Notes under the pieces: generated by a model
Told to the model about the DNA's origin: nothing
Database searches by the model: none
The model's input: the letters and a program-made list of their open reading frames with translations, nothing else
In this document: piece by piece, positions 7,717 through 21,747 of the stretch
Numbering within the stretch: the stretch's first letter is position 1
How the letters are laid out: the number at the start of each line of letters is the position of its first letter
Assembly: GCA_001794755.1 (NCBI GenBank)
Contig: MGKT01000007.1
Span: 1 to 44,127, forward strand
Length of the DNA: 44,127 nucleotides
Direction of reading: 5' to 3'
Source of the DNA: Candidatus Yanofskybacteria bacterium RIFCSPLOWO2_02_FULL_44_18
GTDB lineage: Bacteria > Patescibacteriota > Minisyncoccia > 2-02-FULL-40-12 > GWA2-44-9
Program-made: the position numbers and the translations under genes

Positions 7717-9237
7717 TCATTTTCTTAATTTCGGCGTCACCCAAAAACCCATATATTTACCGAACATCAGTTTCGTCTGGGCGTGCAATGACGGCACGGC
7801 GCCGAAGAAAATAAAATTAATTGGGAACAATATCCACTGCAAGACCATCCAAATTGCTTTGAATTTTCCGTAATTTGGCGGGCGGGGCGGCAAAAGAGTA
7901 ATCGATATTATCGCTGATGTCACCAAACCGAGCATGGCGATATTCATTATCGTCCCTGTAATCCTTGGCAGATTGTATGACAATATTGTGGTCGTAAACG
8001 ATTCCCCGCCCAGCGTAATGGGAAGCCAGCCTAAAAGGAAAATGATAATGGCATTCGTGGCGCTGGAATGGGTTCTTTCCGCCGTTACAAATGTTTGATG
8101 CCATTTTGTCTTTCGGGGTATTTTTTTATTCTTTAAAAAACCGAACATAAAATAGGGATTATTCTCCGCTCCGTAATGCCATCTCAATATCTGCTTATAT
8201 TGATTTTTTAATGTCTTCCAAAATGTCGGGGCGACATTGGCATCCATGTTAACCGGGAAATACATGGGCACAGTCCGCCAGTCGCCGTCATACCGCAATA
8301 GGCATTGCCAGAATATTCTTGAATCTTCGCTGACAACGTTCTTTTGCCAAAAGCCGACGTCAACGAGCGCCTTAAACGAGATTGATTGGGATGAAAATGT
8401 AACTAATTGTTCGGGGCGAGATTGCTGTATCATCTGCCAGAACGTGGTTGAAAATGCGAAAACTCTGGCAAACGCCGGCGCTTCCCATATGTTATTAATA
8501 AACAGCGGGATGGGTTGGAAAGAAGATTTTAACGGTTTTTCAGCCGTTAAATAATTCCAGGTCAAGCAGGAGAAAAAATCTTGATGGACAATCGTATCTA
8601 TGTCAAAAACTGAAACGACAATCTTTTCATAAGGAATGCCCGCAGGATCGATAATGTAATTTTTGACTCGCTGTCCCGCCCAGGTCTCGTTTGATCCTTT
8701 CCCCCTTATTTCCCCCTCCTGTCCGTCTGGATGAGATGTAATTAAAAACTTGTAAAACCTGCTACCGTATTCTTTTTCTATTTCTTCCGCTATTTCCTTG
8801 CTTCCAATTACTCTCTCCTCGCGGGCCAAAACAACAATCATTTTGTCCAGCGGATACTCCGCCTTAATTAATCCCTTAAAGCTTTCCCTAAGAACTTCTA
8901 TGGGCTCGGTGGCGAAAGGCAATATGACCAAATGATAAATGTCCTGCCATTGAAGACGGTTTAACCTTTCGTGCCAATCGACTCTTAAATTAGCCTTCAT
9001 CTTAAAGAAAGCAGCCCGCATTAAAAGGGAAAGATAAATGGTCTTAATCAGCCAATATATGTCAAAAACTATAATAAACAGCGCCGTAAAGAACGGGAAA
9101 TAAAAAGAAATGGCGACAATGGCAATCAATGTCGCCCAAGCCAAAAAACCCGGTAAAATTTCAAGAATTCTATATATTCTCCTATCCTTGTAGTCAGATA
9201 AGTCGGCGGCTTTTCCGACGTGAAGATACTCGATCAT
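7717..9237 (-). CDS. family 2 glycosyltransferase with TM segments (processive/BcsA-like)
   Basis: 506 aa; VSVFDIDTIVHQDFFSCL (DxD-like), QILRWHYGAE (Q/RxxRW) motif, N- and C-terminal TM helices. Confidence 0.88.
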   Translation of the reverse strand: MIEYLHVGKAADLSDYKDRRIYRILEILPGFLAWATLIAIVAISFYFPFFTALFIIVFDIYWLIKTIYLSLLMRAAFFKMKANLRVDWHERLNRLQWQDIYHLVILPFATEPIEVLRESFKGLIKAEYPLDKMIVVLAREERVIGSKEIAEEIEKEYGSRFYKFLITSHPDGQEGEIRGKGSNETWAGQRVKNYIIDPAGIPYEKIVVSVFDIDTIVHQDFFSCLTWNYLTAEKPLKSSFQPIPLFINNIWEAPAFARVFAFSTTFWQMIQQSRPEQLVTFSSQSISFKALVDVGFWQKNVVSEDSRIFWQCLLRYDGDWRTVPMYFPVNMDANVAPTFWKTLKNQYKQILRWHYGAENNPYFMFGFLKNKKIPRKTKWHQTFVTAERTHSSATNAIIIFLLGWLPITLGGESFTTTILSYNLPRITGTIMNIAMLGLVTSAIISITLLPPRPPNYGKFKAIWMVLQWILFPINFIFFGAVPSLHAQTKLMFGKYMGFWVTPKLRK

Positions 9238-12113: not shown

Positions 12114-14747
12114 TTATTTCATTTCCGCCCAATTGTTGCCAATTTTAACGTCGGCGACAATCGGCACATCAAATTCATAAACATTTTCCATTATTTTTTT
12201 AATATTCCCGGACGCTTCGTTTACGACTTCCGGGTCCATTTCAAACAAAAGCTCATCGTGAATCTGCAGAAGCATATGAACAGAATCCTTATAAGTCACT
12301 TCAAGCAATTCCTGAATCTGAATCATTGCCAGTTTGATAAGGTCGGCGGCCGAGCCCTGAATCGGCGAATTCACGGCGATTCGTTCGGCTTGGCTCAAAA
12401 GCTGCGGCATTTTTGAATTTATTTCCAGAATATTCCGTCGCCGACCAAAGATTGTTTTTACGTAGCCGTTTTCACGAGCTTCGGATTTTATTTTTTCCAC
12501 GTATTCGGCGATGCCGGAGAATTCGGCCATGTACCTTTCGATGAAACCTTTCGCTTCTTCACGGGAAACTTTAGCCGCTCTCTGGAAGCCGAGCACTCCC
12601 ATGCCGTAAAGGATGCCGAAATTCAAGACTTTGGCTTTTCTCCTCATGGCCGCTGTTACTTTGTCAGGCAAAACATCGAATATCTCGGCTGCCGTGCGAG
12701 TGTGGATGTCTTCCCCTCTTTCAAATACGGCGGTCATAATTTTGTCACCCGACATGTGAGCGGCGATTCTTAATTCCAATTGCGAATAGTCGAATGAAAC
12801 AAGTTTTCTGCCTTTTTCAGCCGTAAAAGCCTTTCTGAATTCTTGTCCCAATTCGGTGCGAATCGGAACATTTTGGAGATTCGGATCCTGGCTGGAAAGT
12901 CGGCCCGTGGCCGCGCCTGTTTGGTTGTACGTCGTATGTAAACGGCCGTCCGGGCCGATAAATCCCGGAAAGGGTTCGATGTAAGTTGTTTTGAGCTTCT
13001 GCAATTCTCGATATTGCAGAATCAAAGGAATAACCGCGTGTTCGTCCGTTAACTTATCAAGCTCCGATGCCGCCGTGGAAAGGGCGCCTTTGCCTGTCTT
13101 GCGTATCTTGCCTTTCAGCCCCAGTTTTTCAAAAAGAATCCGGCTTAATTGGCTTGGTGAATTGATGTTAAATTCGCATCCGGCCATGTCATAAATTTTC
13201 TTTTCAAGTTTTATTATTTCTTTTTTTAAAGAGCTGGACAATTTGGAAATGGCCCTATTGTCGACTCTTATCCCTCGCATTTCCATTTTTGCCAAAACAG
13301 GAATCAGCGGCATTTCAATATCGCGCAAAACGCCTTCCATGCCCAGGTTTTTTATTCTGGCCAATAATCTTTTGCGAATTTCAAAATAGCGCATCGGCCA
13401 TGATTTGGAATCAGTCGGGGCCGAAGATTTAATCTCGTCAAAATATATTTTTTCAAAGGATATATTTCTGGATTCGGAATCCAGAAGAAAACCGCCTACT
13501 TCCGAATCAAATTCGATGTTATTAACACGAATTCCGTCTGTAAGCAGTTTTTTTACAATCGGTTTGGCGCCGTGAAATATCTTGGCAACTTTTTCGCTTT
13601 CAAAAACCGGTGCCAGGCTTAAATAAACATCAGCCGGCAAAATATAAGCGGTTTTTTCGTCCACCGCCAGTATTAAATCCCCCTCATCCATGGCGACTGC
13701 TACTCTATCTCCGACTGATTTAACGATTTCGAGTGCTTCTTTCTCGTTTCTTAGATATGTAATTGATTCGTTGGAATAATTAAGATTGAAGGATTCTTCC
13801 TTCGGCAACGTTTCGCCGAGGCCGATATCAGGCAGGCGGCGGACTAGACTGAAGAAACCGTATTTTTTAAGTATTTCCTCCAGTTCTTTAACGTTCCCCC
13901 GTTCCCTCCAGCGGGCCTGGTCAAGGCTGAAATCAATCGGCACATCTTTGGCAATGATGGAAAGTTTTTTCGAAAAAAATGCCATGTCCTTGTTTTCCAG
14001 CAATTTCTGAATCAATTTTTCCGACAACGGCGCTTTTATTTTTTCTTTATCTTTTTTTGAAATTGGAAATTTAAAATTCAAAATTGTCTTATATAAATTT
14101 TCGAGATTCCCAAAAGATTGGATGAGAGCCATGGCGGTTTTTTCGCCAATTCCCGGAACGCCAGGAATATTATCCGACGGATCCCCCTTTAAACCTCTGT
14201 AATCAACGAGCTGATTAGGTCTGAGTCCGTATCTTTTCAGTACCGCTTTTTCATCATAGATTACCGCGTCGGTAACTCCTCTTTTCAAAGTCCAGACGAC
14301 CACTTCGTCATTTTCAACCAACTGCAGCGTATCCAAATCGCCTGTCATTATCACGGTCTGAATGCCGGTGCTATTTTGGGCTTTTTCGGCCAAAGCGCCT
14401 ATCAAATCATCGGCTTCGTATCCCTGTTTCTCGTATACTGGGACGCCGAACGATTTTAAGACCTCTTTCACAATCGGCACTTGGGCATGGAGTTCATCCG
14501 CCGCTTTTTGTCTATGTATTTTATATTCGGCAAATTCTTTGTGGCGAAACGTGGGTCCGGCCAAATCAAAAGCCGCCGCAACGTAATCGGGATTCAAATC
14601 CTTAATCATCTTAATAAGTACGGACGTGAAGCCGTAAACGGCATTGGTGGTAACGCCTTTGGCGCTCATCGTCGGCGGCAACGCGTGGAAAGCTCTGTGG
14701 ACTAGGGCGTGGCCGTCAATTAAAACTAATTTCGATTTTTCTTTCAT
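12114..14747 (-). CDS. polA: DNA polymerase I
   Basis: 877 aa; N-terminal 5'-3' exonuclease (MTGDLDTLQLV, DNIPGVPGIGEKTA) and polymerase motifs (DYSQLELRIAAHMSGD, RRKAKVLNFGILYGMG, QIHDELLFE). Confidence 0.97.
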   Translation of the reverse strand: MKEKSKLVLIDGHALVHRAFHALPPTMSAKGVTTNAVYGFTSVLIKMIKDLNPDYVAAAFDLAGPTFRHKEFAEYKIHRQKAADELHAQVPIVKEVLKSFGVPVYEKQGYEADDLIGALAEKAQNSTGIQTVIMTGDLDTLQLVENDEVVVWTLKRGVTDAVIYDEKAVLKRYGLRPNQLVDYRGLKGDPSDNIPGVPGIGEKTAMALIQSFGNLENLYKTILNFKFPISKKDKEKIKAPLSEKLIQKLLENKDMAFFSKKLSIIAKDVPIDFSLDQARWRERGNVKELEEILKKYGFFSLVRRLPDIGLGETLPKEESFNLNYSNESITYLRNEKEALEIVKSVGDRVAVAMDEGDLILAVDEKTAYILPADVYLSLAPVFESEKVAKIFHGAKPIVKKLLTDGIRVNNIEFDSEVGGFLLDSESRNISFEKIYFDEIKSSAPTDSKSWPMRYFEIRKRLLARIKNLGMEGVLRDIEMPLIPVLAKMEMRGIRVDNRAISKLSSSLKKEIIKLEKKIYDMAGCEFNINSPSQLSRILFEKLGLKGKIRKTGKGALSTAASELDKLTDEHAVIPLILQYRELQKLKTTYIEPFPGFIGPDGRLHTTYNQTGAATGRLSSQDPNLQNVPIRTELGQEFRKAFTAEKGRKLVSFDYSQLELRIAAHMSGDKIMTAVFERGEDIHTRTAAEIFDVLPDKVTAAMRRKAKVLNFGILYGMGVLGFQRAAKVSREEAKGFIERYMAEFSGIAEYVEKIKSEARENGYVKTIFGRRRNILEINSKMPQLLSQAERIAVNSPIQGSAADLIKLAMIQIQELLEVTYKDSVHMLLQIHDELLFEMDPEVVNEASGNIKKIMENVYEFDVPIVADVKIGNNWAEMK

Positions 14748-16954: not shown

Positions 16955-18114
16955 ATGTATAAATTCTCTGAACGAGAGTTTTTTTAATCCCCTACCATCA
17001 ACTTAACGGAAAACTTATTAGTACAATACCCCAAAAATATACAGGCGCTACTCAAGGCAAATATTTCAATTTAACAGGCACACTGGCCTTAGTTTTTCTT
17101 ATGATAATCGCCAGAGGATCCGCTGAAAACGGCAGTATTTTTAATCAGATTGTCGGTAAATATATCGAGGAAACAGCCGCATCAATTGTAAGCATCTCCG
17201 AGGCGGAAAATCAATTTGTTGATTCCAGCAATCGAGTTTCTGTCAGCGCGAATGCGTCCGGACAAGGCGGACCGGAATCTCTTCTTCAGCCTTCTCCTAT
17301 TCAAAACAATTCATTCCTGGCATACAATCCCCCGTCTGAAGATTATTTATCAAAAGCCGGCGTTTCCACCAGTCAGATACTCCTATACGAGGTCCAGCCC
17401 GGAGACAATCTTTCTTTCATAGCATCCGATTACGGCGTCAGTGTTAATACCGTTATCTGGGCAAATAGCCTTAAAAACATCGATAGCATATCTCCGGGCC
17501 AAGTATTGAAAATACCGCCCGTTTCCGGTGTAGTTCACGCGGTAAAAAAAGGGGACACGGTTGCCGCCATCGCTAAAAAATACGGCGCGGACGAAAGTCG
17601 AATTATGGCGTTCAACAGCCTGCCGGCAACGGGTGAAGTCAGAGAAGGCGATGAATTAGTCATTCCTGACGGTAAAATCAGTTCTGCGCCCAAATCAAGC
17701 ATCGCGATTAAAAATTCAGCATCAGTATTTTCACACCTAACTGATTTGGGAGAATTCTTCAAATGGCCGGCCACGGGCTTTAATTGGGGTAAAATCCACG
17801 GCCGCAACGGCGTGGACGTAGCTAATGCTTGCGGAACCCCGATATACGCGTCAGCCGACGGCACGGTTACCAGGGCTGATGCCTCCGGCTGGAATGGCGG
17901 ATTCGGCAAGGTAATCAAATTGTCTCACTCCAACGGCACGGAGACTTTGTATGCACACAACAACAAGCTTCTGGTTAATCTTGGTCAGCAGGTTTCCAAG
18001 GGAGAACAAGTCGCTTCCATGGGCAGTACTGGCCGCTCAACCGGATGCCACCTTCATTTTGAAGTTCACGGCGCTCGCAACCCTTTGGCTAAATACTCTA
18101 ATTCAAGCCGCTAA
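16955..18114 (+). CDS. LysM (x2) + M23 peptidase; ATG ORF annotated from 17101, but the true N-terminus probably starts at 16955 with a frameshift at a T7 run
   Basis: YEVQPGDNLSFIASDYGVSVNTVIWAN and HAVKKGDTVAAIAKKYGADESRIMAFN LysMs; HGRNGVDVANACGTPIYASADG...GCHLHFEVHG M23 domain. Confidence 0.85.
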
Positions 18115-19632
18115 AAAAAGTTTTTCGTTGACTCTTAAATTTATCGCTTCGGCGATATTTTTTTCAGTAACTATTTCACTGCCCTCAAGATCGGCCAGAG
18201 TTCTGGATAACTTTTTTATTTTATGAAAAGTGCGGAAAGATAAATTTTTGGCGTTAACGACATCCTTCAGCAATGCTGATGCCTCGGGAGTTGATTGGCA
18301 AAATTTATCAATATTCTTAAAGCTAATTTCAGAATTCGTGAGTATGCCACTGTCTCTGTATCTTTCCGCCTGAATCTTTCTGGCATTTTGTATACTGTCT
18401 CTCATATTTTGAAAATCGCCTTGGGTCGTGGGTATTTTTTGTTCATCCACCTTTTCTCGAGAAACTTGAATTTGAACGTCAATGCGATCCAGAAGAGGGC
18501 CGGAAACTTTTTTTCTGTATTTTATGACATTATATGGCGGGCAGCTGCATATCGCTTTTTCATCGCCGTAATTACCGCACGGACACGGATTCATAGCCGC
18601 CACAAACATAAATTTTGCCGGCAATAACAGAGAACCGGAAACACGCGAAACGGTAACCACTCCTTCTTCCAATGGTTGACGTAAACTTTCGAGAACATTT
18701 CGAGGAAATTCCGGCAATTCATCAAGGAATAAAACTCCCCGATGGGCCAGACTGATTTCTCCCGGCCTTGGCCATGAACCGCCGCCGATGACAGCAGGCG
18801 CAGACGTGTTATGGTGGGGATTGCGAAAAGGCCTCTCCAGTGATAAGGAACCTCCGTTAAATAGGCCGATTGAACTGTATATTTTTGCAACTTCGACAGC
18901 TTCAGTAAATGACATTGGAGGCAGCAATTCCTGCAGTGATTTGGCCAGAATGGTTTTTCCGGAACCGGGCGCACCGCTCATTAATATATTATGGCTTCCG
19001 GCGGCAGCGACAACTAACGCCCTTTTTGCAAAGGCCTGGCCCATAATTGATAAGAATGATATATTCTGCGATTTTATGCTTTTTTCCGGTAATTTTTTGA
19101 CTATCGGCAGGGGAGAAGTGGAGTCAAGATGCGATATAATCTCCATTAAATTTTTGGCCGCGTAAACTTTCAATCCATCAATTATGGCGGCCTCATTTCG
19201 ATTTTCATGGGGAACCCAAAGTTCTTCAAATCCCTGCTCTTTGGCCATAATTGCGATAGGAAGAACTCCATTTATTTTTTTCAGCGAGCCGTCCAGTGAC
19301 ACCTCTCCGACAAAAATTTTTCCAGTAGGATTAAACTCAATTTGCCTGCTTTCGAGCAGATAGGCGATGGCAATGGGCAAATCATACGAGGGTCCTTCTT
19401 TGCGGATATCGGCCGGGGCTAGATTAACTATCACTTTCTTGTGATGGGCGCTCGGCGGCAAAAAACCGCTATTTCTAATAGCGGCCGTAATGCGGTCTTT
19501 GGATTCCTCTACGGCCTTATCTGGCAGGCCAACAATAGTTAGGTTATGCAGTCCTGGAGACGAGTCTACTTCAACATCTATGCGTTGAGCATCAATTCCC
19601 TGAATAGAGGCTGAAAAGATGCGAATGGGCAT
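18103..19632 (-). CDS. comM: YifB/ComM-family Mg-chelatase-like AAA+ ATPase
   Basis: MSGAPGSGKTILAKSLQELLPPMSF, GEISLAHRGVLFLDELPEFPRNVLESLRQPLEEG, AAMNPCPCGNYGD. Confidence 0.94.
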   Translation of the reverse strand: MPIRIFSASIQGIDAQRIDVEVDSSPGLHNLTIVGLPDKAVEESKDRITAAIRNSGFLPPSAHHKKVIVNLAPADIRKEGPSYDLPIAIAYLLESRQIEFNPTGKIFVGEVSLDGSLKKINGVLPIAIMAKEQGFEELWVPHENRNEAAIIDGLKVYAAKNLMEIISHLDSTSPLPIVKKLPEKSIKSQNISFLSIMGQAFAKRALVVAAAGSHNILMSGAPGSGKTILAKSLQELLPPMSFTEAVEVAKIYSSIGLFNGGSLSLERPFRNPHHNTSAPAVIGGGSWPRPGEISLAHRGVLFLDELPEFPRNVLESLRQPLEEGVVTVSRVSGSLLLPAKFMFVAAMNPCPCGNYGDEKAICSCPPYNVIKYRKKVSGPLLDRIDVQIQVSREKVDEQKIPTTQGDFQNMRDSIQNARKIQAERYRDSGILTNSEISFKNIDKFCQSTPEASALLKDVVNAKNLSFRTFHKIKKLSRTLADLEGSEIVTEKNIAEAINLRVNEKLFLAA

Positions 19633-20000
19633 TATTTAATCTTAGCGCAGGAAATACAGAGTTTCGCAACGGGCATGGCTTTTAAACGCTCAGAGTGAAT
19701 TGCTTGGGCGCACTTTTCGCACTTACCGTAGGTGCCGTCATCTATTTTTTTCAGCGTAGTTTGAATATCTTCGAGTTCCTTCTCAAGCTGTTGCTCGTAA
19801 GCGACATTAACGGCCATATCCGACACTTCGCGTACATACGAATCCTCATCGTGCATATCGTCATCATAATTAGGCATTTTAGGGTCGTAGTCGCCTTTAA
19901 TAGACGGGCTTTTTACTGCCACGCTCTCGAGCTCGGTCTTAATTTGATCCTTCCTAGCCTGAAGAATTTCCTTTAGCTTTTGTATTTCTTCGGTGGTCAT
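19632..20000 (-). CDS. TraR/DksA-family zinc-finger protein
   Basis: YGKCEKCAQAIHSERLKAMPVAKLCISCAK. Confidence 0.9.
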   Translation of the reverse strand: MTTEEIQKLKEILQARKDQIKTELESVAVKSPSIKGDYDPKMPNYDDDMHDEDSYVREVSDMAVNVAYEQQLEKELEDIQTTLKKIDDGTYGKCEKCAQAIHSERLKAMPVAKLCISCAKIK

Positions 20001-20233
20001 ATTGCTTTGATATTATTACTAAAATAAAGAAATTTCAAGTAGCAAAAAGCGCGAATCGCCATTTGAGATAGAGTGAGTGTGACGTCGCGCTTAGGTGGTG
20101 TTGTCACACGGCAAGATCGAAGCCGAATTGAAACGACTCCAGTCTTGCCGAATGACAGCATGATTTGCCAAACACCCACAGTTGAGTCAGGTGCTCAGCG
20201 GTATATACAAGGTACTGATGATATTTTAACAAT

Positions 20234-20508
20234 GGTGACAACAGTGTCAATTTGAAACTGTGGATAAGGTGACACCATCACCATGCGTTGGTGTCACCTG
20301 TGGTGTCACCTGCAACTGTCACCATGAAAAATTGGCATAATACATGGATTATTTAATGGTGACATGGTGACACTTCATGGTGACACTTCAAGTGTCACCA
20401 TGACGACAAAGTGACACCAATGGTGTCACCATAAATGCCAACACCGTCACCATGGGTGTCACCTACCATCACCACAAGTGACACCATCACCATGCGTTGG
20501 TGTCACCA
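20234..20508. repeat. cluster of GGTGACA/TGTCACC palindromic repeats
   Basis: 7 GTGACA plus 7 TGTCAC words; exact 30-bp repeat GTGACACCATCACCATGCGTTGGTGTCACC at 20269-20298 and 20478-20507. Confidence 0.95.
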
Positions 20509-21747
20509 TCATTGAGTCCTCAACCTATCAATGGCGGCATACATAGCTTCGCGAGATCCGGCGATAACCAAATATGATTTGCCATTTGCCGTCGAAACAA
20601 TGCCATAGTCTATGCTTGTGTCAGGGTTTGGTCCGTTAATATATCTAATGGCCACGCCCGAATATGTGTTGTCCATAAATTGAGCATCCTTTGGTAACTG
20701 AAGTCCGAACAGTGAATTGAGGTCCGCAGTAATTGTCTGTTCCCAAGATCGAATCGAGTTAGCCATTTGCAAAGGTACCGCTGATTCGGCGATAAGAACA
20801 AGTTTTGTCGGGTTGTTATTTGGCAAAATTGATTTTTGGCCTGCTTTGTCAAAAACCTCCTGCTGGCCGTAGCCAAGCAATACCGATTCGCTGCCTAAAC
20901 TCTGAAGCAAATCATTCGGATATTTAAGCAAAAATATTTGAAGAGCGCTTTCAAATGAAAGGCTTTGGGATGCGCCTTTCTGTGAAAAAATTATGTCATA
21001 ACGATTAAATTGGCCGGCTACACTGGGAATTGATTTTGTGTAATCCGTAAAGAATTTCAGCGGATCATGGCCTGTCGGCATTGATGTTTGTCGTGTCGTG
21101 GGAAAATATTCCGTGAGTTTTTTAACTTCCGGAGTTTGGGTGGGGGTTTCCGACGGAGTCGGGGATTCTATAACAACTTCCGGCTCGCTCATGTCAAAAT
21201 ACCAATACCCCAGTCCGGCCCCGGCCAATAATATCAGAAGAATTATTGTCCAAAGCAATATATTATTCTTTCGTTTTGGCGGGAGAGGGGAAATGGGCAT
21301 GGTGGGCGCCGGACTCGGTTTCGTCGGCAAGGGCGAAGTTGGAACTGGCGTTCTCATTGATCCGGATTTTTCCATTTCACCCAAAGAAATTTTAGGCAAG
21401 GGTCCTGTCGGCTTCGGCGGAATAGGAGGCGGGGCAGGCGTCAGCGCTGGTTTTTGGGGCGGCAGTTCGGTGATTTTCCTGACATCAATTCCGACCGGCT
21501 TTTGCCCGGCTTTTAAATTGGAAATGTCCCCGGCCATGGTTCGGATTGATGATTGGTATTCTTTCGGTGATGGCGGCATCGGCTGGGCCGGACGAGGCGG
21601 AGGAACTACCGGTTTGGGGACAACCTGACTGCTGCTCGGCGCGATAGGAGACGGGGCAGATTGCGACGCACTGGGTTGAGAGGACGAACTCTTGGTTAAT
21701 TCTTTTAACAATTCGTCTATATTCGTCGTTTTTTGAGAATCATCCAT
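20509..21747 (-). CDS. hypothetical Pro/Ser-rich cytoplasmic tail, single TM, extracytoplasmic C-terminal domain
   Basis: 412 aa; NILLWTIILLILLAGAGLGYWYF TM. Confidence 0.8.
   Translation of the reverse strand: MDDSQKTTNIDELLKELTKSSSSQPSASQSAPSPIAPSSSQVVPKPVVPPPRPAQPMPPSPKEYQSSIRTMAGDISNLKAGQKPVGIDVRKITELPPQKPALTPAPPPIPPKPTGPLPKISLGEMEKSGSMRTPVPTSPLPTKPSPAPTMPISPLPPKRKNNILLWTIILLILLAGAGLGYWYFDMSEPEVVIESPTPSETPTQTPEVKKLTEYFPTTRQTSMPTGHDPLKFFTDYTKSIPSVAGQFNRYDIIFSQKGASQSLSFESALQIFLLKYPNDLLQSLGSESVLLGYGQQEVFDKAGQKSILPNNNPTKLVLIAESAVPLQMANSIRSWEQTITADLNSLFGLQLPKDAQFMDNTYSGVAIRYINGPNPDTSIDYGIVSTANGKSYLVIAGSREAMYAAIDRLRTQ

Follow-up and report, generated by a model that had tools for sequence, protein, structure and literature searches.

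What function is served by a gap between two genes of a Candidatus Yanofskybacteria genome that is packed with copies of the words GTGACA and TGTCAC? The genome amounts to 631 kb in nine contigs, and the window analysed here, 44,127 nucleotides in length, is the whole of one of them (C7). Its host group consists of Candidatus Yanofskybacteria relatives (Paceibacteria, CPR), those with GTDB names being mostly Candidatus Yanofskybacteria; these bacteria are tiny and probably parasitic, and gene regulation in CPR/Patescibacteria seems to be little known. The gap is bounded by a gene for a Pro-rich membrane protein (hereafter DUF3352-like), which has a PNPase gene upstream of it, and by genes for a DksA-type protein and a YifB-type ATPase (Table 1), an order of genes that is kept across the taxonomic order. 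All seven GTGACA and seven TGTCAC words listed in the preliminary description are present (positions 20235-20506), at a density far above chance: the window as a whole holds 22 such words over its two strands, where dinucleotide shuffles lead one to expect 8.3, and the chance maximum for any 275 bp in 30 Markov-simulated windows is two. Its palindromes at 20376-20402 (13-bp arms, or 14 bp if taken as 20375-20403) and 20411-20429 proved correct, as did its exact 30-bp repeat (20269-20298 = 20478-20507) and its stops in all frames, which number four to seven in each of the six. It was also right to see neither a CRISPR nor a simple tandem repeat here, since orientation is mixed and spacing irregular; regular direct repeats with spacers are absent from the window array.

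The palindrome itself, which that description took as the unit of repetition, does not hold up in this role, because the unit is asymmetric and occurs in mixed orientation. The conserved element is an 8-9-mer, TGGTGACA(C/T), or T-GGTGACA-Y, found either way round, and the palindromes in the array are by-products of such sites. Genome-wide, GGTGACACC/GGTGTCACC occurs 16 times: six copies in the window cluster, seven at C6:137444-138277, and three singletons, one of which lies in what we read by eye as 23S-rRNA-like sequence. The words are not scattered, and form two clusters only. Both loci have the T-GGTGACA-Y consensus in common (126 and 176 sites), and in both arrays the direct spacings between sites cluster at 8-13, 17-22, and 30-35 bp. 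The expectation that the cluster would recur in relatives with the same synteny was borne out: GGTGACA/TGTCACC clusters are seen in the DUF3352-like-to-DksA gap in about 20 genera, with varying arrangement. Paired GGTGACA sites are present in 27 of 28 genomes of the family, where control matches are near zero, whereas outside the family at least one paired site is found in only 9 of 272 genomes of the class. Arrays of altered words, such as TGTCAAA, GACATAA, CGACACC, and GATGACA, occupy this gap in families f2 and f3 (L045 of G031, L100 of G035, L043, L048, L096), which suggests that the site has drifted there. One further genome, G011, has two non-coding arrays on either side of the DksA-YifB genes (L106:10600-10900 and 12980-13210).

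Read along the minus strand, the array is followed by a TTATC[CA]AC box, a sigma-70 promoter, and a conserved RNA. The box, present in 26 of 28 syntenic gaps, is represented in the window by TTATCCACA, which, from the known consensus only, we take to be a DnaA box; 16 exact copies exist in the genome. In 25 of the 29 stretches scored, box, -35, and -10 elements could be aligned, with the box 7-10 bp from the -35 in 22 and 0 bp in three. The array abuts the box, and the sites overlap or abut the promoter in relatives, as operators do; judged by sequence, the consensus box at a conserved distance from the -35 likewise agrees with a DnaA-regulated promoter. Elsewhere in the genome (C8:14592-14678), two opposed TTATCCACA boxes surround AAGTGGGA-type repeats that have the look of MraZ boxes.

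Table 1. Positions of the array, the promoter elements, the small RNA, and the neighbouring genes in the window
Feature	Position	Strand	Basis or remark
YifB-type Mg-chelatase-like ATPase	18103..19632	-	next gene, conserved
DksA/TraR-type zinc-finger protein	19632..20000	-	downstream neighbour
Putative structured small RNA, ~170 nt	20044..20214	-	covariance model R1, 27.5 bits, E 4.8e-4
Terminator hairpin H3 and T run	20044..20092	-	stem 20047-20092, 2-nt bulge on 3' side
Long hairpin H2, optional	20102..20157	-	found in some relatives
Helix H1, GCUGG...CYGGC stem	20167..20199	-	covarying across relatives
-10 hexamer TAAAAT	20223..20228	-	16-bp spacer
TGTCACC site within -35/-10 spacer	20234..20240	-	likewise in 15/25 promoters scored
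-35 hexamer TTGACA	20245..20250	-	small-RNA promoter
DnaA-type box TTATCCACA	20259..20267	-	only exact copy in window; 8 bp upstream of -35
Array, 12 exact GGTGACA/TGTCACC sites	20234..20507	.	near matches besides
Forward GGTGACA sites	20234, 20268, 20358, 20366, 20379		
Reverse TGTCACC sites	20292, 20304, 20317, 20393, 20424, 20457, 20501		
Pro-rich membrane protein, 412 aa, weak DUF3352 match	20509..21747	-	upstream neighbour; locus marker across order

The RNA was recognised with a covariance model (R1) built without the window sequence, which has a single, weakly scoring match in the window's own genome. Matches were recovered from 30 of 45 genomes of the order, and coordinate comparison places 29 of the 30 best ones directly downstream of the DUF3352-like gene; the one match outside the order (G065) comes after a gene that shares the IRTM motif, and box and promoter are the same there too. 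The layout in relatives begins with a 5' AGNUCYUU-like segment; the GCUGG...CYGGC hairpin comes next, then one that is optional, and last a terminator hairpin, frequently with a 2-nt bulge. Among 18 pairs predicted by RNAalifold from 18 sequences, 14 show compensatory changes, and the covariation score is 0.591 against 0.312 (sd 0.026) for shuffled alignments and at most 0.20 for slid structures. An Rfam search with the locus and 12 relatives returned nothing at gathering score, and weak matches, mostly on the inverted words, were set aside as chance. With a conserved and compensated structure, a promoter, and a terminator, the locus has the makings of a small non-coding RNA gene, and conservation lends good support to this RNA, which would constitute a new, previously undescribed family. 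No base-pairing target came out of the one test made, in which the RNA's 5' segment was paired with the leader upstream of the surface-like gene described below: there was no signal, the energies being -25.5 within the same genome and -24.5 between genomes. A metatranscriptome of the Yanofskybacteria family has been reported (PMC10936435).

The second array, on contig C6, sits within the gene of a 521-aa lamin-tail protein, where the words take the form of GTG ACA CCN / GTG TCA CCN codons and encode Val-Thr/Ser-Pro linkers. In relatives the corresponding synteny is FKBP, a winged-helix protein, the lamin-tail (or ComEA-like) gene, and a gene for a protein of about 1245 aa. The lamin-tail/ComEA genes hold 6-17 words against about 0.5-2.5 expected under synonymous shuffling, an excess seen in 15 of 15 genes (0 of 500 shuffles in each), which indicates that selection acts on them at the level of DNA. 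Where the lamin-tail gene is absent, a non-coding array occupies the same place. A promoter of similar design recurs nearby: 50 bp to about 3 kb downstream of the array is a TTATCCACA-type box that, together with a recognisable promoter, precedes the ~1245-aa protein gene and its 450-650-nt leader in 17 of 19 genomes examined, one further genome of the 19 having the box and a poor -10 match. This box (L017 ~8820-8880, that is C6:136820-136880, and L133-L152 in relatives) is mostly 9-10 bp before the sigma-70 promoter. A sequence search of the ~1245-aa protein against solved structures returned no match. Separately, some relatives have a REP-like palindrome, CCTGTGGATAATCGACTTCGCAAGTCGATTATCCACAGG, whose arms carry the DnaA-box word TTATCCACA (L139:7780-8260 and L137:8440-9270), and one copy stands beside the start of an ORF that presumably resembles a REP-associated transposase.

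In most genomes of the family, the gene next to the second array encodes the winged-helix protein (about 180-250 aa), which we consider most likely to be the binder of the arrays, judging from its neighbourhood, its co-occurrence with them, and suggestive co-variation in family f3. In the window's own genome this gene is on the minus strand at about C6:138450-138986 (L017:10451-10987). Of the 45 genomes from the order, 39 encode the protein, 37 with a single match, and in genus g17, represented by two genomes in which the DUF3352-like-to-DksA gap is only 67-71 bp, it is missing together with the paired sites and the RNA. In the predicted structure a four-helix bundle is joined through a disordered linker (residues 99-111) to a C-terminal winged helix weakly resembling ArsR/BlaI/MarR-type domains (best E 6e-3). 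A search of solved structures by sequence with the winged-helix profile gave no match. The winged helix is of the general type of DeoR/BlaI/ArsR-type regulators, whereas the N-terminal bundle with its long linker matches no solved full-length structure. Such a flexible and possibly oligomeric protein would suit irregularly spaced sites. Co-variation between the word and the recognition helix in families f3 and f4 is only suggestive. A short stretch containing VAQ(Y/S) is found repeatedly in a variable loop of otherwise divergent homologues (L139, L141, L142, L145, L146, L149, L151, and L152), and G011 has a distant homologue only.

Taken together, these observations favour, with a probability of about 0.7, the reading that the cluster is a multi-site operator array of the small-RNA promoter, likely bound by the winged-helix protein, with DnaA as a second input. 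The sites, the promoter, the box, the RNA structure, and the two conserved loci are well supported computationally; we infer which protein binds, that the effect is repression rather than activation, that DnaA occupies the box, and what the RNA does. Transcription of the small RNA would start at about 20216 on the minus strand and end at 20044, from a promoter under control of the array. The protein would recognise the asymmetric unit, and because one site lies between the -35 and -10, its occupancy would block RNA polymerase; the flanking sites would allow cooperative binding by a flexible, multi-headed protein. DnaA, at its box upstream of the -35, would supply the second input. The second array lies upstream of another DnaA-box promoter, that of the ~1245-aa surface-like protein. 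The operator reading explains why sites fall in promoter spacers and are linked to the promoter, why their orientation is mixed, why two loci are conserved, and why coding sequence shows selection. The earlier proposal of a multi-site platform for a DNA-binding protein survives as the best reading, while its picture of a dimer reading palindromes is not an obvious fit to asymmetric sites of mixed orientation and variable spacing. A possible, if doubtful, extension is a two-node system in which one multi-headed winged-helix protein binds both arrays, one of which selection would maintain within the gene of a secreted protein, perhaps bridging them, and the adjacent DnaA boxes tie replication to the RNA and to the surface-like protein gene.

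Among other readings, the one closest to ours keeps the operator array and assigns it to a different binder. The winged-helix gene is several kb away from the second array in seven genomes, which leaves room for this; its position beside that array in most of the family, its usually single copy, and its absence from g17 along with array and RNA make such a substitution rather unlikely. A centromere-like or nucleoid-organising platform for an oligomeric protein, with the promoter incidental, would account for dense, irregular sites of mixed orientation beside the gene of a putative binder, as in plasmid centromeres, and in G011, a single contig, the array is about 25 kb from dnaA at a change of sign in GC skew. 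Against this, spacer sites occur at 15 of 25 loci, next to a conserved DnaA box, and a canonical ParB gene is present in 10 of 10 genomes tested, in the window's own genome on another contig. The window contains no parS-like 16-mer at up to two mismatches and no exact matS sequence. The presence of ParB and the link to a promoter render the partition or segregation role suggested in the preliminary description less likely, and the platform reading as a whole is improbable. We also rejected the array as a replication origin: in G011 the distance to dnaA is 25 kb, and in the genome of the window dnaA is on a different contig.

The words could instead act as hairpins of a structured RNA, in the 3' UTR of the DUF3352-like gene, as was also proposed at the outset, or in a leader. 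A fold z-score of -9.3 was obtained for the minus strand, and the stop codon of the DUF3352-like gene abuts the array in the window, but opposite-facing copies of a single word fold by construction, and the conserved RNA starts beyond the array. This reading is further weakened, to the point of being very improbable, because in 8 of 19 relatives the array is separated from the DUF3352-like gene by strong hairpins, several of them terminator-like, and the copy in lamin-tail coding DNA has the same site consensus and exceeds synonymous expectation. Local expansion, by mutation, of a neutral or selfish palindromic repeat (REP/RPE-like) might be read into the exact 30-bp duplication, the nested palindromes, and the REP-like elements of relatives, yet it is hardly credible for words that, unlike the palindromes dispersed over many loci of REP/RAYT systems, occupy only two loci per genome, syntenic in about 20 genera, with one consensus and a changing arrangement.

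Parallels exist with several known systems. MraZ boxes at mraZ exemplify bacterial operator arrays upstream of regulated promoters, and the present arrays resemble them in having several copies of a short word at a promoter and an adjoining or linked gene for the candidate binder. They differ in the use of both orientations, in variable spacing, in having at most 15 sites per locus at two loci per genome, one usually in coding sequence, and in that the candidate binder is uncharacterised. DnaA-regulated promoters share the perfect TTATCCACA at a fixed distance from a sigma-70 promoter, whereas here, in CPR bacteria, the promoters are those of a small RNA and of a gene for a surface-like protein, and the DnaA input is predicted. 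The matS consensus GTGACRNYGTCAC, a single 13-bp palindrome found across the Ter region and bound by MatP, has a half-site, GTGAC, that fits the array word, but the window has no exact match to it and two one-mismatch matches, both within the repeated units. CcnA, a non-coding RNA at the Caulobacter origin that is presumed to be activated by CtrA (PMC8959179), is likewise a small RNA with promoter sites for a cell-cycle regulator and DnaA boxes in its region; it belongs to another organism and lies in the origin, whereas the RNA described here is in the DUF3352-DksA gap, at least 25 kb from dnaA where this distance is known.

A search of the open-licence literature found neither a small RNA nor an operator system for CPR/Patescibacteria, and the cluster and the second array point to an unstudied gene switch. 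For the CPR there is now an RNA family, together with a consensus for the sites, a candidate regulator, and DnaA as a likely second input; each of these can be tested in vitro or in E. coli, with no need to culture the organism. More generally, the array within coding sequence offers an unusually clean case of DNA-binding sites shaping the sequence of a protein.
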